Shown here: positions 141 to 60,060 of the stretch, piece after piece
How positions within the stretch are numbered: position 1 is the first letter of the stretch
Layout of the letters: each line of letters begins with the position of its first letter
Origin: Alteromonas pelagimontana
GTDB lineage: Bacteria > Pseudomonadota > Gammaproteobacteria > Enterobacterales > Alteromonadaceae
Assembly: GCF_002499975.2 (NCBI RefSeq)
Contig: NZ_CP052766.1
Span: forward strand, 1,116,001-1,180,000
Direction: 5' to 3'
DNA: 64,000 bases
Position numbers and translations under genes: made by a program
The notes under the pieces: generated by a model
The model's database searches: none
The model's input: the letters and a program-made list of their open reading frames with translations, nothing else
Told to the model about the DNA's origin: nothing

Positions 141-2360
141 TTAGCTATGGGCATTGTAACCATACTGATCGTAGAAACCGCCATACCGCTCAGAAACATC
201 TGATTTGCGTAAATCTACCTGGTTCAGCACCACACCATCGACGCGGTGACCCACCTGAAGAAAACGGCCCAAACCATTCTTAATCATTTTCTCGCTGGTA
301 CTGTCTGCCCGCACAACATAAATTACGGAATCACAGGATTTAGACACCACCATAGCATCACTTACCGCTTGCGTAGGTGCCGTATCAACGACAACATATT
401 TATAATGCTTTTTCAAATAATTGATAAGAGCACGGAAGCCATCACCGGCAAGAAGTTCTTGCGGGTTTGACGGAATGCTTCCGGCGCAAATAAGATCAAT
501 GCCCGATTGCTCATCATGTACCAGACATTCATCCAAAGAATGGGTTTTCATTGTCAGGTTTGACAGCCCTGGCTGATAATTTGGAACATTGAACCGTTTG
601 CCCACAGCAGGGCGACGTAAATCTGCATCAATCAAAATCGTTTTATCTAACTGTCCCAAAGCAAATGCCAGGTTAATGGACACGGTAGTTTTCCCTTCCT
701 TCGGCACACTTGAGGTAACCAGAATCGCTTGGTTCTGCTTTTCAATATTGATAAGCGATAAACTGGTACGCAAGGTACGCACCGCTTCGCTGAACTGATG
801 AAACTTGTTGTCGAAGAAAGCCCGAAGCGGTACATCTTCTTTGCGCTTTTGAACCAAGATGGGAATTAAGCCTAGCATACGCTGCCCCAGCTTCTTCTCA
901 ACATCATCCACGGAACGTACACCACTGTTGAGTGCTTCAAGTACAAAGGCCAGCAGCACGCCGAATCCAAAACTCACTACCAGTGCGGCTCCAATTAACA
1001 AAGATTTATTAGGCGCGGTAGGGTTATTAGGCGGCACAGCAGGGTCAAGAATGCGCGCGTTAACCGATTCAAAGCCACCAATTTCACTGGTTTCTTTTAA
1101 GCGGGTAAACATCGAGTTGTACAGTTGTTGATTTATGTCCACATCGCGTTGCAATGCGCGGCGCTGGTTTTCTAAATTAGATAACTTGCGATACTCCGCT
1201 TTAACGGTAGAAACTTCTTCCTGCAACGTGGCAACCCGCTCCTGCGCGGCGCGAAATTGTGTAGTAATACTGGAAATAAGATCGCGGATTTGCGTTTGTA
1301 GCGTGTCTCGGACTGATGCCAGTTCGGCATTAGCCGCTACCATCTGCGGATGTTTCGCTCCGTACACCTTGCTAAGTTCTGATACCCGGCTCAATGCCGC
1401 CGCTTCTTGCCTGCGGACACTTTGAATATTGGGGTGGTTAAGCACTTCAGGTAATCTCGCCAGCGCACCATAATCTGCACCATTGCGCTGCGTTTGCTCA
1501 TAAATTGTGCGATTCTGCTTGAGTGTAGTTTGCGCGTCAATAAGCTGATCACTGAGTTGCTCCAGTTCTTCAGCAGTTAATCCCACCACACCATTACTCA
1601 AATTGACCAACTGGTTATCTTCGTAAAATTCCGACAGCTTTTTCTCTGCTTCAGCCAGTTTATCACGCAGACCATCCATACTTTCTGTTAAAAATGACGT
1701 CGCCTTGGTGGTCATGTCAACTTTAGCCTGCAGATAATTTTCTATATAAACGTCGCCCATTGTATTGGCAATTTGTGCCGCTAACTGTGGTGAATCGCTA
1801 ATGGCGGTTATTTCAATTACCTGAGTATTGTCTACCAAAGACACTTTAATGGACCGCATCAATTTATTAATTGCTGCCTGACGACGTTTATCGGCACGTT
1901 GCTCTTCCGTGAGTTCGGTTTTTTCCTGCTTTGGTAAGAAAGGAATGGCAGATTTAATCCAGTTTTTAGCTTTATTTAGAATTGCGATTCCACCATCCGA
2001 AGGTGGCATAAAAACGGGATCGTTGGCCAAATCAAGTTCATCTACAGCGCGAGACGCCACTTGGCGCGACTGAATGATTTCGTATTGGGTCTGCATATAA
2101 TCTTTACGGGTGGTGTCAGATTTGTATATCTCTTCAATAGACATCACGTTGGCAGGCTGAGATTCAATTAACAGACTCGCGGTAGCTGAGTAAATAGGCG
2201 TCATCTTCATGACCACCAGGGCTACGAGTAAAGTAAACAAAATCGCCAGTACGATGATACGACCTGCATACCGCTTAAAAACTTGCCAGTAATGTGCAAA
2301 ATCGATGGTTTCATCGTCGAGAATATTAGCCTGAAGCTGATCCCTCATTTTTATAGACAT
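141..2360 (-). CDS. Wzc/VpsO-like polysaccharide co-polymerase with BY-kinase domain
   Basis: A 739-residue inner-membrane protein that controls EPS chain length and export. It has an N-terminal Wzz domain with a membrane helix at about 35-52, a long periplasmic coiled-coil region (about 220-425), a second membrane helix at about 453-475, and a cytoplasmic bacterial tyrosine kinase domain. The kinase has Walker A SSVPKEGKTT (550-559), Walker A' ILIDADLRRP (575-584) and Walker B VVVDTAP (656-662). The tail is a tyrosine cluster with Tyr726, 730, 733 and 735, the usual autophosphorylation sites. AGGA lies 7 bases before the ATG. It sits between the Wza-like gene upstream and the PHP phosphatase downstream in one minus-strand operon. 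All expected catalytic motifs are present. Confidence 0.95.
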   Translation of the reverse strand: MSIKMRDQLQANILDDETIDFAHYWQVFKRYAGRIIVLAILFTLLVALVVMKMTPIYSATASLLIESQPANVMSIEEIYKSDTTRKDYMQTQYEIIQSRQVASRAVDELDLANDPVFMPPSDGGIAILNKAKNWIKSAIPFLPKQEKTELTEEQRADKRRQAAINKLMRSIKVSLVDNTQVIEITAISDSPQLAAQIANTMGDVYIENYLQAKVDMTTKATSFLTESMDGLRDKLAEAEKKLSEFYEDNQLVNLSNGVVGLTAEELEQLSDQLIDAQTTLKQNRTIYEQTQRNGADYGALARLPEVLNHPNIQSVRRQEAAALSRVSELSKVYGAKHPQMVAANAELASVRDTLQTQIRDLISSITTQFRAAQERVATLQEEVSTVKAEYRKLSNLENQRRALQRDVDINQQLYNSMFTRLKETSEIGGFESVNARILDPAVPPNNPTAPNKSLLIGAALVVSFGFGVLLAFVLEALNSGVRSVDDVEKKLGQRMLGLIPILVQKRKEDVPLRAFFDNKFHQFSEAVRTLRTSLSLINIEKQNQAILVTSSVPKEGKTTVSINLAFALGQLDKTILIDADLRRPAVGKRFNVPNYQPGLSNLTMKTHSLDECLVHDEQSGIDLICAGSIPSNPQELLAGDGFRALINYLKKHYKYVVVDTAPTQAVSDAMVVSKSCDSVIYVVRADSTSEKMIKNGLGRFLQVGHRVDGVVLNQVDLRKSDVSERYGGFYDQYGYNAHS

Positions 2361-2404: not shown

Positions 2405-2950
2405 TTAGAAAAAGCGCTGTGGAATGGTAATAATGTCACCGGGTTGGATCTGGTGACTAACGCTGACTTCCATTGAAATCTGCTTGCCGTCTTTTTCCCG
2501 CACAATCTGAATATCAGAACGAGAGGCGCGTTCTGTATAACCACCAGCCAGTGCTGCGGCTTTATTCACTGATAAACCTGGCTGATAGGGATATCCGCCA
2601 GGTTGCTTCACTTCACCATCGATAAAGAAAGGGCGATATTCAATTATCGAAACGGCCACTGATGGATTGACAAGGTAGTCGCCTTTCAAGCCATTGTATA
2701 TAAGGCTTTCCACCTCAGAAAGGGTTAACCCCACCAGTTTCAAATCCCCTAAAAAAGGATAATTGATTTTACCCACGTCTGGTAAACGCGTCTCCATGGA
2801 TAAATCGCTTTGACCAAATACGTTAATCAGAATCTTATCGCCCACACCCAATCGGTAGTGGGACATACTTAAATTGCCTTCCTGTGCAAACGCGTTAAGA
2901 AAGCAAAACGTCAGAGTGATCGCGACGATAAGCTTTACTACTATTTTCAT
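2405..2950 (-). CDS. Short Wza-like polysaccharide export protein (Poly_export/SLBB)
   Basis: A 181-residue secreted protein with a signal peptide (about 1-22, ending NAFAQ). A polysaccharide-export domain follows, recognised by YRLGVGDKILINVFGQ and NYPFLGDLKLVGLTLSEVE, then an SLBB-like region (about 110-170). It is about half the length of E. coli Wza (379 residues): it lacks the extra SLBB repeats and the C-terminal outer-membrane helix. No lipobox cysteine follows the signal peptide. Its ATG shares a base with the stop of the upstream outer-membrane barrel gene (TAATG), implying translational coupling. Inference: it forms the periplasmic part of the exporter and the coupled barrel supplies the outer-membrane channel. 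Confidence 0.88.
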   Translation of the reverse strand: MKIVVKLIVAITLTFCFLNAFAQEGNLSMSHYRLGVGDKILINVFGQSDLSMETRLPDVGKINYPFLGDLKLVGLTLSEVESLIYNGLKGDYLVNPSVAVSIIEYRPFFIDGEVKQPGGYPYQPGLSVNKAAALAGGYTERASRSDIQIVREKDGKQISMEVSVSHQIQPGDIITIPQRFF

Positions 2951-4152
2951 TACAACGTTACCTTTGCAGTGATACCTACGACATCCCGGTCGTAGTCGAT
3001 AATGTCACGGTTGCTGTCTCGCTCATTCATTTGATAGAACAAACCAAAATTTAGCCAGCGGCGAAATTCGTAATCTGCTGACAATGTCAGTCGGGTAGTG
3101 TCATCTTCACGCAAATCCTCGACATCTCCAATATAATCATCAGTCATGTAGGCAACTTGTGCCGTGGTAGAGAACCGATCGATCCAGAAGTGCTCCCAGC
3201 TCAAGCTATAATCACGGCTACGAATATAGTCGGCTTCGCTGTTGGTTTCGCGGGTATCTGCTTTAGTATTCACCTTAAACTGAGAGTAAGTCATAGGCTC
3301 CCAAGTCATGCCTACTTCCCACGCCACCCCAGAAAAATCTTCCCGATCCACTGCTTCGAATTTTTTCTGCTTATATCCCACTTTAACGAAGCTACGGGTA
3401 TATTCGTTGGTATCCCAGGTCAAGCCAGCAAGAACTTTATTCTCTTTACTGTCTAAGGTCGCTTCCGGTCTGGCAGCCTCATCATATTCAATTTCCTGAT
3501 GATTAGCATCTAGTACCAAATTAGTGCTAGGAGCAACCCGGTAGAACAACTGCGCGCCGTACTTAAAGTATTCTCTGTCTCGGAAAAGATACACACCGTC
3601 GTCCATGTCATAGTTCATATCTTCGTAGCCAGCGGTTATATCAATACGGCCAAACGCTGACATGGCACCATAAGAATAGGTTGCATCAACCTCGGAGTTT
3701 TTATAGGTATCGGGTGAAGTTAATTCGTTACCAAACCCGTTTGAATAGCGGCGGCCCCGCTCGTCATGACCATCTTCATAGCGCGCACTGGCGCGTAAAC
3801 GGTTGCGGTCATTAATTTCATACTTACCCGCCAAGTGGCCAAAGTGGTCAGTATAGTTGTCAGCTTCACTGGAAAAGTATTCGCCACGTTCGATTCGGTA
3901 GCCGAATTCTACTTCATTTCCACGAAACTCGGTAACAGCATTAATTTGTGGCGAAATGATACCAACCCAGCTACTGATATTTTCCTGGCTGTCGTTAGCG
4001 TAAGTTACATTATCTATATGCAGAAGTTCAGTGGTAAGATCGGGGACAAAATCTACGTTGCCCATCTGAATTCTGCCTTCTTCCTGAGCGTTGGTAACGC
4101 CGGAGGCTCCAAAAAGTGAAAGTGCTACTACACAGGAAGTCCTTTTAAACAT
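2950..4152 (-). CDS. Outer-membrane beta-barrel protein of EPS locus (BBP2-like)
   Basis: A 400-residue protein with a cleavable signal peptide (about 1-22, ending TNAQ). The rest is built of alternating amphipathic strands rich in Tyr, Arg, Asp and Phe, with no long hydrophobic helix, and ends in a strand, VVGITAKVTL. This matches the putative outer-membrane beta-barrel proteins (BBP2 type) found next to wza/wzc genes in EPS clusters of Alteromonadales and Vibrionales. It is the first gene of the minus-strand operon, translationally coupled to the Wza-like gene by a TAATG overlap. A sigma-54-type promoter lies about 130 bp upstream. The role as export channel or assembly scaffold is inferred from context. 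Confidence 0.8.
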   Translation of the reverse strand: MFKRTSCVVALSLFGASGVTNAQEEGRIQMGNVDFVPDLTTELLHIDNVTYANDSQENISSWVGIISPQINAVTEFRGNEVEFGYRIERGEYFSSEADNYTDHFGHLAGKYEINDRNRLRASARYEDGHDERGRRYSNGFGNELTSPDTYKNSEVDATYSYGAMSAFGRIDITAGYEDMNYDMDDGVYLFRDREYFKYGAQLFYRVAPSTNLVLDANHQEIEYDEAARPEATLDSKENKVLAGLTWDTNEYTRSFVKVGYKQKKFEAVDREDFSGVAWEVGMTWEPMTYSQFKVNTKADTRETNSEADYIRSRDYSLSWEHFWIDRFSTTAQVAYMTDDYIGDVEDLREDDTTRLTLSADYEFRRWLNFGLFYQMNERDSNRDIIDYDRDVVGITAKVTL

Positions 4153-4283
4153 GGTATCTCCGCATTTTTAATGGAATAAACAGAAGCTTGAAGTCGCCTA
4201 ACATAATGTAGGGGAGATTCTCCCTTACCAAAAAGGCCACTGTTTAGATTGTTCTTACCCGCTCCTGGCTTCGGTGAACGCCA

Positions 4284-4299
4284 TGCTATTTACATGCCA
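4284..4299 (-). promoter_or_regulatory. Predicted sigma-54 promoter for the barrel-wza-kinase operon
   Basis: Read on the minus strand the site is TGGCATGTAAATAGCA. Against the RpoN consensus TGGCACG-N4-TTGCW it has the essential GG and GC elements with exactly 10 bases between them and mismatches only at two of the less conserved positions. The predicted transcript start is near 4273, leaving a leader of about 120 nt before the ATG at 4152. It faces away from a second sigma-54-like site at 4499. Confidence 0.5.
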
Positions 4300-4353
4300 A
4301 GAGTCTACTGCTCGCACGACGACTTCCTTAGTTAAACGTAGGATCGTGAAAAA

Positions 4354-4422
4354 ATGATTACTATAATTAGCACTTTATTTGTAGCTTCCCTTATATCGGC
4401 TGCCATCTGGACAGCAAAATAA
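4354..4422 (+). CDS. Possible 22-residue hydrophobic peptide in the EPS divergent region
   Basis: An ATG-initiated reading frame encodes a 22-residue peptide, beginning MITIISTLFVASLISAA and ending IWTAK, with one continuous hydrophobic segment and a basic end, the look of a single-pass small membrane protein. An AGGA sequence lies 10 bases before the ATG. It lies between two divergent predicted sigma-54 promoters in otherwise non-coding DNA, where activator sites would be expected. No homologue is recognised and a chance frame of this size is entirely possible. Confidence 0.25.
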   Translation: MITIISTLFVASLISAAIWTAK

Positions 4423-4468
4423 TTCTTTCACAATAGCTTGTTATGATCTTCTCTCACCCTCTCCTGTA

Positions 4469-4481
4469 AATCAACATTCTG
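4469..4481 (+). promoter_or_regulatory. IHF-like site upstream of the second EPS sigma-54 promoter
   Basis: AATCAACATTCTG matches the IHF core WATCAANNNNTTR with one mismatch. It is centred about 50 bp before the predicted start of the promoter at 4499-4514, the usual place for DNA bending between an activator site and a sigma-54 promoter. The motif is degenerate, so this is supportive rather than independent evidence. Confidence 0.3.
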
Positions 4482-4498
4482 TACAAACCAAGAACAAC

Positions 4499-4514
4499 TG
4501 GAACAGTTATTGCT
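4499..4514 (+). promoter_or_regulatory. Predicted sigma-54 promoter for the sugar transferase gene
   Basis: TGGAACAGTTATTGCT matches TGGCACG-N4-TTGCW with mismatches only at positions 4 and 7. The GG and GC elements are exactly 10 bases apart and the whole TTGCW element is intact. The predicted transcript start is near 4525, about 100 nt before the ATG at 4627. No sigma-70 promoter of similar quality was noticed here. Confidence 0.55.
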
Positions 4515-4626
4515 TTATATCCACTCAGAAGCCTTTTTCAGTTTTCCAGAAGTTTTGAACTTATATGTGTGTGGTGTCTACAGTCCTTGTGTTTCCTGGT
4601 TTACCACTTGATGGAGCGAACGTGTT

Positions 4627-6084
4627 ATGAAATTTAATTTACTGCAAAGTCAGACGCTAAATAGCAACACGACTTCAGGTAATGAGAAGAAAAGTGGTAT
4701 CACAGGCTATTACCAAAGCAGTTTTTCGACGGTATATCGCTTGATTGATTTATCGATCATTACTGTGTGTTTTTATGCCGCTGTTTTTTATTACGGCCTG
4801 ACGCTTACAACCACAGGCCTGGTGCTACTGTTTATTAATGTAGTCTCTTTTCAGTTGTCAGCTGAAGCTATGGATCTATACCGTTCATGGAGAAGTAGTC
4901 ACACCAGCGCAATGTTAAAAAACGCCGCAATAACCTGGATAATCAGTTTTGCGGTGACGTTAACTATCGGCTACTTCTTCTCCCATAGCATGACCCTCGC
5001 CCCTGGCACAGTGTTGTTGTGGTTCATGTTATCTGCACTGTTGCTGATGAGCTGGAGAATGATAATGCGTCAATTCCTTTTCACGGTTCGTCGCAGCGGT
5101 TTAAATAGTCGTTCTGCAATTATAATCGGTGCCACTCAAATCGGCTACGACATGGCGTTGCAGATGATGGAAAACGACCAGTTAGGTATTCATTTTAAAG
5201 GCATTTACGAAGATCGCGGCGAAGACCGTTTATCCGAAAATTTTCACAGCCAAATCCAGGGTAATATTGATGAAGCAATCGAATTAGCGAAAAATCATAA
5301 AGTAGATTATATCTATATTGCGTTACCCACTGCAGCAGAAGAGCGCATTAAAGCGATTCTTGAAAAGTGTAGTGATACTACCGCTAACGTTTATCTTATT
5401 CCTAACTTCTTTATGTATAGTCTGTTGAATTCTCGCTGGCAGAGCGTGGGTAACGTGCAGGCACTAAGCGTCTACGATACTCCGTTTCAAGGTGCGAATG
5501 ATGTACTGAAACGCATTGAAGACGTGGTGGTGAGCAGTTTGATTTTACTATTGCTGGCCATTCCTATGTTAGCCATCGCTGCCGCCGTTAAGCTGACTTC
5601 AAAAGGTCCTGCTATCTTTAAGCAAAAGCGCTATGGTTTGGATGGGAAAGAGATCACTGTATACAAATTCCGGTCTATGACTACGCAGGATAATGGGTCT
5701 GTGGTCAAACAAGCGACAAAAGGGGACCCTCGCATTACCCGGTTAGGTGCGTTTTTACGTAAAACCTCGCTCGATGAACTACCGCAATTTATCAACGTGT
5801 TGCAGGGCAGAATGTCCATAGTCGGCCCTCGCCCTCACGCAGTTGCACATAACGAACAGTATCGTAAACTTATCACCGGATACATGCTGCGTCATAAGGT
5901 TCGTCCAGGTATTACAGGATGGGCACAAGTTAACGGCTTACGTGGCGAAACTGAGACAGTCGATAAGATGGCGAAACGGGTGGAGTTTGATCTGGACTAC
6001 ATGCATCGTTGGTCAGTGCTGTTTGATATCAAGATTATCCTGAAAACAGTAGTCGGCGGATTTTCAGATAAAAACGCTTATTAA
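4627..6084 (+). CDS. Undecaprenyl-phosphate sugar (glucose) phosphotransferase, WcaJ/VpsL type
   Basis: A 485-residue polyisoprenyl-phosphate hexose-1-phosphate transferase that starts EPS repeat-unit assembly by moving a sugar-1-phosphate from a UDP-sugar to undecaprenyl phosphate. The N-terminal half has four or five membrane helices (about 35-150) and a CoA-binding-like Rossmann segment ([15 protein letters not shown]). A further membrane helix (about 300-320) precedes the catalytic domain with [33 protein letters not shown] and [18 protein letters not shown]. Full length for the family. GGAG lies 11 bases before the ATG. It is monocistronic, with a strong terminator after it, and divergent from the kinase/export operon. 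The sugar cannot be fixed from sequence; glucose is the commonest for this subfamily. Confidence 0.93.
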
Positions 6085-6127: not shown

Positions 6128-6636
6128 TATTTGGATGAGAAGATGCCTGCTCAGTAAGGCTTTTTTTGGTTTCGCGTTCCACTGACTCCTCTGATCTTTA
6201 ATCAAGCATCTAAACCTCAGGGGAAGATCGCGAATACTTTTTTTAAAAAAAGGGTTGATTAACCAGGCTTTCGAGCAATGCTACTTCGGCAGCGCCATCA
6301 GGAATGACTTTGGGTCATTCCGATAAAAAATTTTATTTACCCAAGGCTGCTTATTTCAGTTCCATTCACGCCATTGATGGCATTCACTTCCAGGCAGTGC
6401 GTCGGTGGAAGCTAAATACACTTACTAAAAAAAATTTAACTGTAGTAAAATTACAACACTTCGGCAGCAGATGCGGCTATATGTAACCTTATGTAATAAA
6501 ACTACGTTGTGTAATATTTTCCTGTCAAACTGACGTTTCGAAAAATATACAAAATACCTCTGACCGTAGATGCCAACTATTGCTAACGATATGTTAATTC
6601 TTGTGATCCGAAAGAGATTATGGCGTAACATGAATG
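6128..6636. other. AT-rich intergenic region without a convincing gene
   Basis: About 510 bp between the EPS terminator and the coiled-coil gene. It holds a 16-bp perfect palindrome of A/T tracts (C-T7-A7-G) at 6237-6252 and an 8-bp inverted repeat GGAATGAC / GTCATTCC at 6301-6321 with a 5-base loop. Frames of 60-70 codons here (for example 6304-6486, plus) have no recognisable domain, no good ribosome site and a biased composition, so I treat them as chance. Confidence 0.6.
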
Positions 6637-7612: not shown

Positions 7613-8284
7613 TTACTCAATATTCATTTGTCGGGAAATATCCTGTTGCGAATATTCCGTTGCAATTACATCAATTTCTTGCTGCATTTTGTTTATTTGA
7701 CGGGCGTAAAAACGTTGATCGTCGCTACGCTGCTCATTAATAAACTTCACCAGTTCGGAGAAATCCTCACGCCTTTCCTGCCGACTTGAGCTCAGCAGGT
7801 ATTGGGTAAGTTGCGTACTGGCTTCTTTCTGCTGAGCCACTATTGCATCAACATACTTTCCAAAAAGTGCCTGATTGGCTTGTTGATAGGTGTGGAGTTT
7901 CTCGTCGACCAGTTGCGCTACAGCCTGTTCATCGGGCGCTGAATTAAATCCCATAGATATTTTTGAGCCTTCTACTTCTACATGAAAGCCGGTAATTACT
8001 AAGACCAGCGCAAAAGCAGAGATTGCCATCGACGCTACAGGGAGTCCCTGCCACTGCCACCATTTAGGCTTATCTGCTACCAGAAAAGTGTTTTCTCGCT
8101 GCCAGTGAGGCACAGGAACTGACTCAAACTGCTCTGCGGTCATATTCAGTTGATTTGCCGTTTCCACTTGCGAAGCAAAGCCAGGATCTTCCAGACAAAG
8201 ACGCTCAAACTCCTGTTGCTCGTCATCCGAAAGCGGCCCATTCAACCATTTTGCAAATAGTGCTTCGTACTTCAAATTATGCAT
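7613..8284 (-). CDS. Putative transmembrane anti-sigma factor
   Basis: A 223-residue protein with a short cytoplasmic N-terminus. The segment ALFAKWLNGPLSDDEQQEFE resembles the N-terminal helix of anti-sigma proteins that grips the sigma factor. One membrane helix (about 82-100, LPVASMAISAFALVLVITGF) is followed by a helical Gln/Glu-rich periplasmic domain (about 120-220). The ATG overlaps the end of the ECF sigma gene by 8 bases, the usual coupled arrangement for a sigma/anti-sigma pair. No zinc-binding HxxxCxxC motif is present, so it is not a ZAS-type factor. The assignment rests on topology and gene order rather than strong family motifs. Confidence 0.7.
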   Translation of the reverse strand: MHNLKYEALFAKWLNGPLSDDEQQEFERLCLEDPGFASQVETANQLNMTAEQFESVPVPHWQRENTFLVADKPKWWQWQGLPVASMAISAFALVLVITGFHVEVEGSKISMGFNSAPDEQAVAQLVDEKLHTYQQANQALFGKYVDAIVAQQKEASTQLTQYLLSSSRQERREDFSELVKFINEQRSDDQRFYARQINKMQQEIDVIATEYSQQDISRQMNIE

Positions 8285-8819
8285 TTTCCACCTCCAAATC
8301 CAGCTTCAACTTTGATAATGCACTATAGAGTCGCGATTTTACCGTATTGGCAGAAAGCCCTAGCTGCTGGGCAATCTCATCAAAAGTAAATTGTCCAAAG
8401 AATTTCAACTCCACAATGGCTTTTTGCGTCAGCGGTAGTTTCTGCATCGCCCTGATTAATGACGCGCTGGCGCGATCGCTGAGTACATCTGCCTCGGGGC
8501 CATTATTTTCACATACAGGTTCAGGAACATCGTCCATCCCCTGTTCCGGGCGTTTGCGCCGATAAAACTCTATACAGCGATAGTGGGCGACGCGGAAAAG
8601 CCAGCTTTTAAAGCTGCCTTCTTTGCGATAATTTCCCAGACTACGAAAGACCGAAATAAAAATGTCCTGCATCAAGTCTGCAGCATCATGAGAATTTCCA
8701 GTCATGCGAATTCCATAATGATAAATGGATTTTTCGTAGCGTTTTATCAGCGCAAGCCAAGCCTTCTTGTTTCCACTCAGGGCTTGTTCAATGAGTTTTT
8801 CATCGCGCTTTTCAAACAC
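8277..8819 (-). CDS. RNA polymerase ECF-family sigma factor (sigma-70 family)
   Basis: A 180-residue sigma factor with the ECF two-domain layout. Sigma2 (about 20-90) includes DAADLMQDIFISVFRSLGNY and the region 2.4 stretch FKSWLFRVAHYRCIEFYRRK. A linker follows, then sigma4 (about 120-175), ending in the helix-turn-helix LGLSANTVKSRLYSALSKLK. It begins at a GTG with AGGA 8 bases upstream; no in-frame ATG precedes the conserved core. It is the first gene of a three-gene minus-strand operon with an anti-sigma factor and a secreted coiled-coil protein. Such sigma factors usually activate their own operon; I could not identify the matching promoter by eye. Confidence 0.92.
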   Translation of the reverse strand: MFEKRDEKLIEQALSGNKKAWLALIKRYEKSIYHYGIRMTGNSHDAADLMQDIFISVFRSLGNYRKEGSFKSWLFRVAHYRCIEFYRRKRPEQGMDDVPEPVCENNGPEADVLSDRASASLIRAMQKLPLTQKAIVELKFFGQFTFDEIAQQLGLSANTVKSRLYSALSKLKLDLEVENA

Positions 8820-35829: not shown

Positions 35830-35845
35830 TGGCACGGTAATCGCT
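35830..35845 (+). promoter_or_regulatory. Predicted sigma-54 promoter for the VpsP-like/O-antigen ligase pair
   Basis: TGGCACGGTAATCGCT matches the RpoN consensus TGGCACG-N4-TTGCW at every conserved position but one (C for the second T of TTGC). GG and GC are exactly 10 bases apart. The predicted start is near 35856, about 38 nt before the ATG at 35894. It is the best of the three sigma-54-like sites found. Confidence 0.6.
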
Positions 35846-35893: not shown

Positions 35894-36658
35894 ATGACCC
35901 AATCCCCGTTCCAGTCTGACCTGTCGGTTAATACCGATAAGGCAAGACAGCAGGCGAGCGCGCTAACGCAATTGTTACGCGTAGCGGTAGCTTGCGTGGC
36001 ATTAGGTTTATCTGTGCTTTGTCTGCAATTTGGTACAGCATACCTCACCGCCCAACATTCCGAAGCCACGGTGAGTCGTTGGTTTAAAGGTCTGGAAATT
36101 CCGGCTGCAACAGATATCGAACTAATGCAAAAAAACCTGGAAAGCGTTAGCGAAATTTTACCCAGCGATGCTGGTGTGGAGTTAGCTCTTGCCCGTTTAT
36201 ATTTGCTACGGGGACAAGCGGAAAATTCTGAAGTATTTTACGAGGCAGCCCGTACCACGCTGAATGATATCCGCCTGGCTCAACCCACTCACTTCCAGCC
36301 CCTAGCCCTGCTTGTGCTATTGGATGACATGCAAAATATTCCCATTGCAGATGCAATGCCGAATATTGAAAAGGCATTAAGTGCCGGAGCATTCGAGAAA
36401 GAAACACAGCTAACTATCGGCCCGCTGATTGTGAAAAAATGGCAGCATCTATCCGCCCATGCGCAAGAGTTAGCTGGCCCCTTTGTGAAAAGCGCCTTGC
36501 GGGAAGAAGACACCAAACAACGTATGTACTCCGCTATGCGTGAATATGCTCTGGTAACGCCTTTTCTTAGCTATTCTTCAAATAAGAAAACATCTGCGGA
36601 GCTTAGGGAGATGGCAAGCTCGTTGATGAAGCACACAGAAAATGCCACTTATCGATAA
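35894..36658 (+). CDS. VpsP-like polysaccharide biosynthesis protein
   Basis: A 254-residue protein with one membrane helix (about 28-52, LRVAVACVALGLSVLCLQF) and a helical, TPR-like periplasmic part containing ALARLYLLRGQAENSEVFYE and LNDIRLAQPTHFQPLALLVLL. This layout, next to an O-antigen ligase/polymerase gene, fits the VpsP family of EPS loci. Its 3' end overlaps the ligase gene by 17 bases, so translation is coupled. A strong sigma-54-like promoter precedes it. Identity with VpsP is judged from architecture and neighbour only. Confidence 0.6.
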   Translation: MTQSPFQSDLSVNTDKARQQASALTQLLRVAVACVALGLSVLCLQFGTAYLTAQHSEATVSRWFKGLEIPAATDIELMQKNLESVSEILPSDAGVELALARLYLLRGQAENSEVFYEAARTTLNDIRLAQPTHFQPLALLVLLDDMQNIPIADAMPNIEKALSAGAFEKETQLTIGPLIVKKWQHLSAHAQELAGPFVKSALREEDTKQRMYSAMREYALVTPFLSYSSNKKTSAELREMASSLMKHTENATYR

Positions 36659-38102
36659 CTCTCTCAGCACATGTTCCCGAATTGTTATCGCTATAGCGAT
36701 TCTACTGTATCCCTGGTTACACGGTGCTGAGCTACCTTGGGAACAGGTAAGCATGGCCGGATTTATTTTTGTAGCACTACTGTTAGCAATTACCCAACGC
36801 AATCTTCTGGTTGACTTACCTGCCGCGTCCAAAACGTTTTTCATGCTTTTTATCCTTTGGCTGGCCTACTGTTGCCTGTATATCATTCCCTTACCTTTTG
36901 CCGTTGTAGAAGTGTTAAGTCCCAATATCGCCGCCTGGTATAACAGCGGGCAGCCGCCGGAAGAAATTTACCTTTCGGTATATAAGCAAGCCTCGCTTAT
37001 TGAATTGTTCAAATATATTGCCCTGGCAGCGCTGTTTTTGCTGGTAACCGCCTTATTTCGGGAGGAAAAAAACGTTCATCGTTTAGCCTGGATATTGGTG
37101 GCGGGCTGTCTTTTAACTGCATTGTACTCGCTGTTAAATTTTGGTACTAAAGGACAGTTTGAATGGGTAGCCGCCATTCCTCCCTGGGGTTTTGAATGGG
37201 AAAACGGTATCCGCGGGACCTTTAGCTATAAAAACCAGTACGCTATTTATCTTGCAATGACCATTGCAGTGGCAACAGGCTTACTTGCTGATCGGCTACA
37301 GGCATTCCACTTCTCCGGGCACTCATCGTTTACAGCGAAAGTAAAAATGGTGATGCAGTCCAGCGCCTGTATCTTGTTAATCAGCATTGTTGTTCTTTAC
37401 ATCACTTTGCTTAACACCAGCTCACGCGGAGCGGTGGTATCACTGATTGTTGCAGCAATTATAGCGCTGGGGTTGTATCTACTGACAAACCGCGTCTTTC
37501 GGAAGCTGATCTTTAATAGGAAAATACTCGGGCTTGGCGCTGTAGCCCTTATTATTGCTGCAGCCTTGTTTACGCAATCGTCTATTTTCAAGCGCTTTGG
37601 TAGTGATAAGTTAGAAGATAACGGAAGAACCTTACTTCGTAATACAGTAGTGCAGGTTATTGAGCACAGCCCTGTATTTGGCACGGGGCCAGGCACTTAT
37701 CCCTATATTCAGCATTATTTTAAGCCGTTGCAACTGGGCAATTCGCAAATGTCAAAACGTGCGCATAATGATTATTTAGAAACTTTTGCTACCCAGGGAA
37801 TAATCGGGTTTTCACTACTGGGGTTAAGTATCGGTTATCTGCTGGTGCATCTATTTAAAAATGTGGATACCAGGTTTAACGGTCTGCTGCTGGGATGCCG
37901 GTGTGCAATTGTGGCGTATATGATTCAGGCTGTTTATGATGTTAATGCTGCAGTTTATTACCTGCCGTTTTGCTTCATATTGATCCTCGCTTTAGGCAAT
38001 GTAATCTTGCTGTTTCATCGCCGCACCAGTGACGCGTTAGTGGCAGACTCGAACGAAAAAGCTGCAGTTCCCCAAGCCATCTTAAAGCGAAGCCATTCTT
38101 AA
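36642..38102 (+). CDS. O-antigen ligase / polymerase family membrane protein (Wzy/WaaL-like)
   Basis: A 486-residue integral-membrane protein with about ten helices and a large periplasmic loop. The loop near the end holds GTGPGTYPYIQHYF and RAHNDYLETFATQGIIGFSLLGL; the HNDYLE-T-x-GI-G segment is the hallmark of O-antigen ligase (Wzy_C) family proteins. Its likely role is polymerising EPS repeat units on the periplasmic face. It overlaps the VpsP-like gene and is about 30 kb from the kinase, export and initiating transferase genes, so the EPS machinery is split. The region after the stop has a 7-bp hairpin (38202-38217) followed by CCTTTT, a weak terminator. Confidence 0.85.
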   Translation: MPLIDNSLSTCSRIVIAIAILLYPWLHGAELPWEQVSMAGFIFVALLLAITQRNLLVDLPAASKTFFMLFILWLAYCCLYIIPLPFAVVEVLSPNIAAWYNSGQPPEEIYLSVYKQASLIELFKYIALAALFLLVTALFREEKNVHRLAWILVAGCLLTALYSLLNFGTKGQFEWVAAIPPWGFEWENGIRGTFSYKNQYAIYLAMTIAVATGLLADRLQAFHFSGHSSFTAKVKMVMQSSACILLISIVVLYITLLNTSSRGAVVSLIVAAIIALGLYLLTNRVFRKLIFNRKILGLGAVALIIAAALFTQSSIFKRFGSDKLEDNGRTLLRNTVVQVIEHSPVFGTGPGTYPYIQHYFKPLQLGNSQMSKRAHNDYLETFATQGIIGFSLLGLSIGYLLVHLFKNVDTRFNGLLLGCRCAIVAYMIQAVYDVNAAVYYLPFCFILILALGNVILLFHRRTSDALVADSNEKAAVPQAILKRSHS

Positions 38103-58572: not shown

Positions 58573-60060
58573 ATGAAACCATCTTTACAGCTAAAATTTA
58601 GTCAACAGTTAACTATGACGCCCCAATTGCAGCAGGCAATTAAACTGCTGCAATTGTCGACGCTGGATCTTCAACAGGAAATTCAGGAAGCTCTGGATTC
58701 CAATCCCCTATTGGAGGTGGATGAAGGGAACGATGATGTCGGTGAGAAAAACAATCTCGACAATGACGACTTTAATGAAACGGCAAGTACGCCGTCGGAC
58801 AATATGGATACCGGCGAAGCGTTAGAGAAAAACGACCTGCCTGACGAGCTTCCTATTGATAGTACCTGGGATGAATATTATTCCGCGTCTTCTGCCCCCG
58901 CAGCGTCTTCCTCTTCTGGTGGTAGTGGTGGCGACGATGAACAGGTTTTTCAGGGTGAGACCACAGATAACATTCAGGATCATCTCTTGTGGCAGATGCG
59001 TCTGACACATTTTTCTGATACCGATCGTGCAATTGCTATGGCCATTATTGATTCCATAGACGAATCGGGATATTTAACTGTCACCGTTGAAGACATTCTA
59101 CAAAGTGTAAACGACGAAGATATGGAAGATCCTATCGAAGAAGACGAAGTTGAATGTGTACTTAAGCGGATTCAAATGTTCGACCCTCTTGGTTCTGGGT
59201 CCCGTAATCCGCGGGAATGCCTGATGGTGCAGTTAAAGCAGTTCTCCCCTGATACGCCCTGGCTGGAAGAAGCCAAAATGATCATCGATGAATATGCTGA
59301 TTTGTTGAGCAGCAAAGATTATCGTACGTTGATGCGCAAATCGAAGCTTAAAGAAGATCAGTTGCGCGAGGCCATGCGCTTGTTGCAAACGCTGAATCCT
59401 CGCCCCGGCAGCGCCTTAATAACCAAAGAACCGGAATACGTAATACCGGATGTGTCGGTTACCAAGAAAAACGGCCGTTGGGCAGTTGAGCTTAATCCTG
59501 ACAGCCTGCCAAAGCTAAGTGTGAATCAGCAGTATGCCGCTATGAGTCGTCGTTCGAGAAACAGCAGTGACTCACAGTTCATTCGCTCTCATATGCAAGA
59601 GGCGAAATGGTTCATAAAAAGCTTAGAATCCCGCAATGATACATTGCTGAAAGTGGCTAACTGTATTGTTCAGCAGCAAATGGGCTTTTTTGAACATGGC
59701 CCTGAAATGATGAAACCTATGGTGCTAAATGATGTCGCAGAGATGGTAGACATGCATGAATCTACTATTTCGCGGGTAACCACCCAGAAATACATGCACA
59801 CGCCCCGTGGGATTTTTGAGCTGAAGTACTTCTTCTCCAGCCATGTGGCGACAGATTCTGGCGGCGAGTGCTCATCTACCGCTATTCGCGCATTAATTAA
59901 AAAGCTGGTGGCAGCAGAAAAACCGAGTAAGCCGCTAAGCGACAGCAAGATTGCTCAATTGTTGGCCGAACAGGGTATAAAAGTTGCTCGGCGAACAATA
60001 GCAAAATATCGGGAGTCGTTATCGATCCCACCGTCTAACCAACGTAAAAGCCTTATCTGA
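58573..60060 (+). CDS. rpoN: RNA polymerase sigma-54 factor
   Basis: A 495-residue sigma-54. N-terminal Gln-rich activator-interaction region I ([20 protein letters not shown]), an acidic and Ser-rich region II (about 50-125), the core-binding domain, and the C-terminal RpoN box ARRTIAKYR (in [18 protein letters not shown]). All domains are intact. It recognises -24/-12 promoters and needs AAA+ activators. A small stem GCCTTA / TAAGGC overlaps the stop codon. It forms one block with hpf, ptsN, rapZ and npr, standard in gammaproteobacteria. Candidate target promoters occur in this window at 4284, 4499 and 35830. Confidence 0.97.

Follow-up and report, generated by a model that had tools for sequence, protein, structure and literature searches.

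An exopolysaccharide (EPS) locus in the window, by which we mean the whole 64-kb stretch of Alteromonas pelagimontana DNA that was analysed, is headed by two outward-facing sigma-54-type sites that are very probably working promoters, judging by their sequence and by their conservation in related bacteria. Both lie in the divergent intergenic region at 4153..4626 (474 bp, from the ORF calls and the sequence). The minus-strand site, TGGCATGTAAATAGCA at 4284..4299, faces the barrel/wza/wzc operon, and the plus-strand site, TGGAACAGTTATTGCT at 4499..4514, faces wcaJ; each has its -24 and -12 elements in the GG-N10-GC arrangement. Counting 12 nt on from the GC, the predicted transcription start of the minus site is near 4273; that of the plus site is near 4525. 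An earlier sequence-only reading had described the same gap length, positions, outward strands and spacing, with about 200 bp between the sites, and each of these was found in the sequence (199 bp measured between them). Its count of two mismatches in each site holds for the minus site and fails for the plus site, which has one, when both are scored against the sigma-54 consensus TGGCACN5TTGCW.

Alteromonas species are common EPS-making marine bacteria, and the genes flanking the gap serve EPS export and initiation. The minus operon begins with an EPS-associated outer-membrane beta-barrel protein (BBP2_2) at 2950..4152, minus strand, which matches its Pfam model at 96.5 bits and the EpsL model under the cut-off. 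It continues on the same strand with a Wza-type polysaccharide export protein at 2405..2950 (Poly_export and SLBB) and a Wzc-type chain-length protein with a tyrosine autokinase domain at 141..2360 (Wzz, GNVR and AAA_31, with TIGR01007 above its cut-off); a CpsB/CapC gene comes next after the operon, just beyond the window edge. On the plus strand, 4627..6084 encodes a WcaJ-type undecaprenyl-phosphate glucose phosphotransferase (TIGR03023, 545 bits against a cut-off of 411). An ECF-type sigma factor gene also lies near the EPS locus (8277-8819, minus strand), with two ORFs downstream that have no Pfam match.

Across the window, sigma-54-like matches with two or fewer mismatches number 38, against 42.6 expected by chance; when the GG/GC core is required, 13 are left in the 64 kb, two of them in the EPS gap. 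Of 5000 dinucleotide-shuffled versions of the window's gap, 0.06% contained an outward pair at two or fewer mismatches, a figure limited by the post hoc choice of that gap. Sites in the window are about as frequent as chance predicts. Conservation is the independent test, and it is what sets this pair apart.

Orthologous loci were sought with the barrel as anchor, which was matched in 64 of 98 genomes; 14 of the 59 Alteromonas-group genomes, with a barrel match that was absent or weak only, are outside the locus set. We read the gaps of the best 30 loci, of 15 more Alteromonas-group loci and of five order-level loci. The 43 Alteromonas-group loci counted are those, from 45, with a divergent wcaJ in reach; the other two are L142, where the contig ends and the minus site is present, and L143, which has both sites and no wcaJ match. 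The order-level loci (L148-L152) have no divergent wcaJ and fall outside the count.

The outward GG-N10-GC pair occurs in 37 of the 43 loci at three or fewer mismatches and in 29 at two or fewer, counts that are not independent, the loci being related by descent. In 100 dinucleotide-shuffled sets of the same 43 gaps, the corresponding means were 0.55 (maximum 4) and 0.08 (maximum 1), and inward pairs, which act as an internal control, numbered two and zero in the real gaps. As a check, the sequence-only reading had proposed looking for the -24/-12 elements at orthologous loci, and its divergent sigma-54 pair for two EPS transcripts survives that check. The six loci lacking a full pair (L136, L141, L144, L145, L146 and L147) have barrels 38-45% identical to that of the window; in two of the six, L141 and L146, the minus site alone is still present. 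Among named relatives, in a survey that shares many genomes with the best-30 set, the pair is found in three of three Paraglaciecola loci, one Thalassotalea MAG and one of six Glaciecola loci; none of four Motilimonas loci has it, and wcaJ is not divergent there.

A motif-free test agrees with these counts. When 14 nearer gaps are aligned, 20 interior columns (those at least 25 nt from either start codon) are invariant, and 15 of these fall within the two 16-bp sites; most of the rest of the gap has diverged while both sites stay, and they stand out as its most conserved blocks. In 13 more distant gaps the sites are out of register in the alignment, yet scanning finds both in each gap. The grouping into nearer and distant gaps was made by the analyst, and L019, L024 and L035 belong to neither. 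Over the 30 best loci the sites lie 90-148 bp from wcaJ and 80-215 bp from the barrel, which are promoter-like distances. Sequence likeness by itself would also be compatible with the conserved words being sites for another DNA-binding protein that resemble -24/-12 elements by accident. We consider this very improbable: the two sites are on opposite outward strands, share the GG-N10-GC spacing, flank a variable middle and stand where promoters would be expected.

The distant gaps hold a second conserved element, the central palindrome TTGTAATAAAATTACAA, which accounts for 15 of the 23 invariant interior columns in their alignment and matches the HexR consensus TGTAATTAAATTACA (PMC11906056). 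A HexR-type palindrome, TTGTAATNNNATTACAA with two or fewer mismatches, lies between the sites in 23 of the 43 gaps (at 502-518 of the L029 gap, for example), and a shorter HexR pattern is present in 20 of the 37 gaps left after near-duplicate removal, against 3.3 in the null. Of 24 boxes, 12 have a -10-like hexamer (at least five of six positions) 16-18 nt after the first six bases, where the background rate is 4%. With such hexamers beside HexR boxes, wcaJ seems in part of the genus to be served also by a sigma-70 promoter under HexR control. The palindrome TTGTAATAAAATTACAA was at one point a candidate sigma-54 enhancer and was dropped because it fits the HexR consensus.

The same palindromes and hexamers would suit a reading in which sigma-70 promoters carry the main transcription, in some relatives under HexR, and the sigma-54 sites are minor or conditional. 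We find that reading rather unlikely. The window's own gap has no HexR-type palindrome (the best candidate has four mismatches), a sigma-70 scan there returned only weak 9-of-12 sites, and in the nearer gaps conservation is strongest at the sigma-54 sites. At 6440-6456 of the window, in the convergent gap 3' of wcaJ, there is a sequence close to the HexR palindrome, CTGTAGTAAAATTACAA; genome-wide, this pattern is found 23 times against 25 for its control, that is, at chance frequency.

Taking the two sites as sigma-54 promoters, RpoN-RNA polymerase would be held as a closed complex at both until an activated AAA+ enhancer-binding protein opened both complexes. The export machine (barrel, Wza and Wzc) and the chain-starting WcaJ would then be switched on together, with little leak when off. 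Promoter activity, RpoN-dependence and joint firing are what we infer from this arrangement, and on balance we lean toward a single activator shared by both promoters. The sites co-occur in 37 of the 43 loci and serve a single pathway, which tells against their being real promoters under separate control, each with its own activator or enhancer and divergent merely as a matter of gene layout. Separate control is the less likely option. In its favour, a shared enhancer motif was not found in the gaps searched, the interval between the sites ranges from 43 to 446 bp across 30 loci, and two loci, as noted above, keep only the minus site.

The sequence-only reading had suggested that the stretch between the promoters could hold shared enhancer sites for one activator. 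The searches turned up no conserved enhancer for an activator in the window's gap, and no activator box among those tried accounts for the whole set of gaps; loose enhancers can evade such searches. Spaced palindromes were sought in 28 representative gaps with the sigma-54 sites and HexR boxes masked, and the top words were at or just over the shuffled range and mostly of low complexity. Word enrichment was assessed in 37 of the 43 gaps, six near-identical loci having been dropped. Consensus words for GlrR, NorR, FleQ, TyrR, LuxO, SypG, CRP, IHF and VpsT showed no clear enrichment in these 37 gaps. NtrC-like words occur in 10 of the 37 gaps against 2.9 expected, mostly as one clade's common word, and the window's own gap has none.

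Geometry also bears on where an enhancer could lie. The most closely set sites are 54 bp (L019), 43 bp (L024) and 53 bp (L035) apart, leaving scant room between them in these three relatives for the usual enhancer, which would need to sit within that stretch or outside it. One place to look is the wcaJ leader and gene start (4579..4670, plus strand), which sequence comparison shows to be conserved at the DNA level in the nearer relatives. The leader word CTGGTTTACCAC, with three or fewer mismatches and no more than 60 nt from the start codon, is present in 13 of the 43 gaps against 0.8 in the null. The leader is a possible, if speculative, location of a downstream enhancer. By three tests the leader is not a folded RNA element: Rfam gave three matches with E up to 1, every one under the gathering score; no consistent fold was seen beyond shuffles; and a compensatory change occurred in only one of 21 pairs.

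The machinery for sigma-54 transcription is encoded in the same genome, a single contig of 4.3 Mb. The rpoN gene lies inside the window at 58573..60060 on the plus strand (PF04552 at 237 bits, PF04963 and PF00309), was absent from the sequence-only reading and is the sole PF04552 match in the genome. It is 54 kb from the promoter pair and is followed by genes for a PTS EIIA-2 protein and RapZ. A genome-wide survey of activators with PF00158 gave 12 matches, nine of them strong and three weak; all lie outside the window, in agreement with the sequence-only reading, which had seen no activator gene there. NtrC, NorR, PspF, TyrR and PrsR score above an NCBIfam cut-off, one further protein resembles GlrR (600 bits on a shortened frame, where the cut-off is 763), and another of the nine is an orphan response regulator. 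Two more are presumably FlrA and FlrC, from their sequence and close mutual position. The GAFTGA motif is kept in eight of these nine proteins and is lacking in TyrR.

The activator list can be shortened by comparison with one relative, G006 (locus L040), which has both sites. Eight proteins match there: orthologs of FlrA, FlrC, GlrR, PrsR, NtrC, PspF and TyrR, at 79-95% identity, plus one additional protein of 828 aa. Neither the orphan regulator nor NorR has a close ortholog among the eight. If one activator serves the genus, it should therefore be FlrA, FlrC, NtrC, GlrR, PrsR or PspF. The orphan response regulator was set aside on these grounds, conserved in the genus though it is (80-92% in nearly all searched members); its cluster (L131:2592-10905) also holds ExoD, a CHASE3 kinase, a receiver protein, a hybrid kinase and a GGDEF-EAL protein. 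An activator of the FlrA/FleQ type and NtrC are the leading guesses, drawn from precedents, and either one taken singly is still improbable.

PrsR deserved separate scrutiny, as PrsK and PrsR are encoded about 195 kb off and the genome also has an exosortase and 12 PEP-CTERM matches. The neighbourhood of prsK/prsR (L101:4353-9468) also holds an IS1182 transposase and a protein whose short PtuA-like match is under the cut-off. A pattern search for the PrsR box gave 27 matches (L153-L179) in 16 of 60 genomes, against one for the reversed control. The matches share TGTC-N7-TTTACAC and, apart from L163 and L168, lie 48-50 or 60-62 nt upstream of a sigma-54 site, two spacings that differ by about one helix turn. 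In Haft et al. (2006, PMC1569441), motif 1 of PEP-CTERM promoters is 17 nt long, ends 3' in TTTACA and has a mean spacer of 62.8 nt, and the form and spacing observed here agree with it. A matrix was built from 25 distinct boxes, with L163 and L168 dropped as likely false. On the 43 EPS gaps it reached at best 8.3, whereas its members score at least 18.4 and one shuffled gap reached 19.3. The canonical box, clear at PEP-CTERM genes, is thus missing from the 43 gaps, which excludes PrsR acting through TGTC-N7-TTTACAC as the activator.

A third sigma-54-like site, TGGCACGGTAATCGCT at 35830-35845 on the plus strand, has one mismatch and stands 48 bp upstream of an ORF whose VpsP match is weak (under the cut-off) and which is followed by a Wzy_C gene (genes 35894-38102). 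A second polysaccharide operon, at 35.8 kb, may be under sigma-54. A search for words that the EPS gap has in common with the sequence leading up to the 35830 site stayed near the shuffled level (4 against 3.6). One could combine all of this into a wider scenario, which we offer tentatively and regard as doubtful when taken whole: a divergent EPS sigma-54 switch in most of the group, an activator working without a conserved inter-promoter enhancer (through the wcaJ leader or very loose sites), HexR-sigma-70 rewiring in part of the genus, and the third site before the Wzy-type operon. If it were true, the HexR layer would tie slime production to central carbon status, and the 35.8-kb site would bring polymerisation under that switch as well.

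At the start of an EPS locus, a promoter pair that is conserved and tightly gated would mark a control point and come with a short list of activators, and the HexR boxes in part of the genus hint at a route by which a lineage could put metabolic control on the same switch. In other bacteria, EPS is already known to come under sigma-54 control (PMC5552954, PMC3162934), and one PEP-CTERM gene has been mapped as RpoN-dependent (PMC9850573). In the titles and opening abstract lines of the open-licence literature on Alteromonas sigma-54/RpoN and EPS, on EPS clusters and on divergent sigma-54 promoters, this promoter pair was not found.

Four known systems invite comparison. The PrsK/PrsR promoters of PEP-CTERM genes are likewise sigma-54 sites linked to EPS systems (PMC1569441); unlike them, the EPS gap has no PrsR box, and its genes serve EPS export and initiation rather than PEP-CTERM. 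In Vibrio fischeri, SypG is likewise an enhancer-binding protein that controls polysaccharide genes, syp (named in PMC5552954), whereas the EPS gaps show no enrichment of SypG-like words. NtrC-linked control ties a sigma-54 activator to EPS in Burkholderia cenocepacia (PMC5491218) and also in Vibrio vulnificus, and NtrC is a candidate here; unlike those systems, the window's gap has no NtrC-like word. The Bep exopolysaccharide of B. cenocepacia is likewise produced under RpoN and an enhancer-binding protein, BerB (PMC5552954). There, RpoN acts at the regulator gene berA, whereas the sites described here face the export genes and wcaJ directly.
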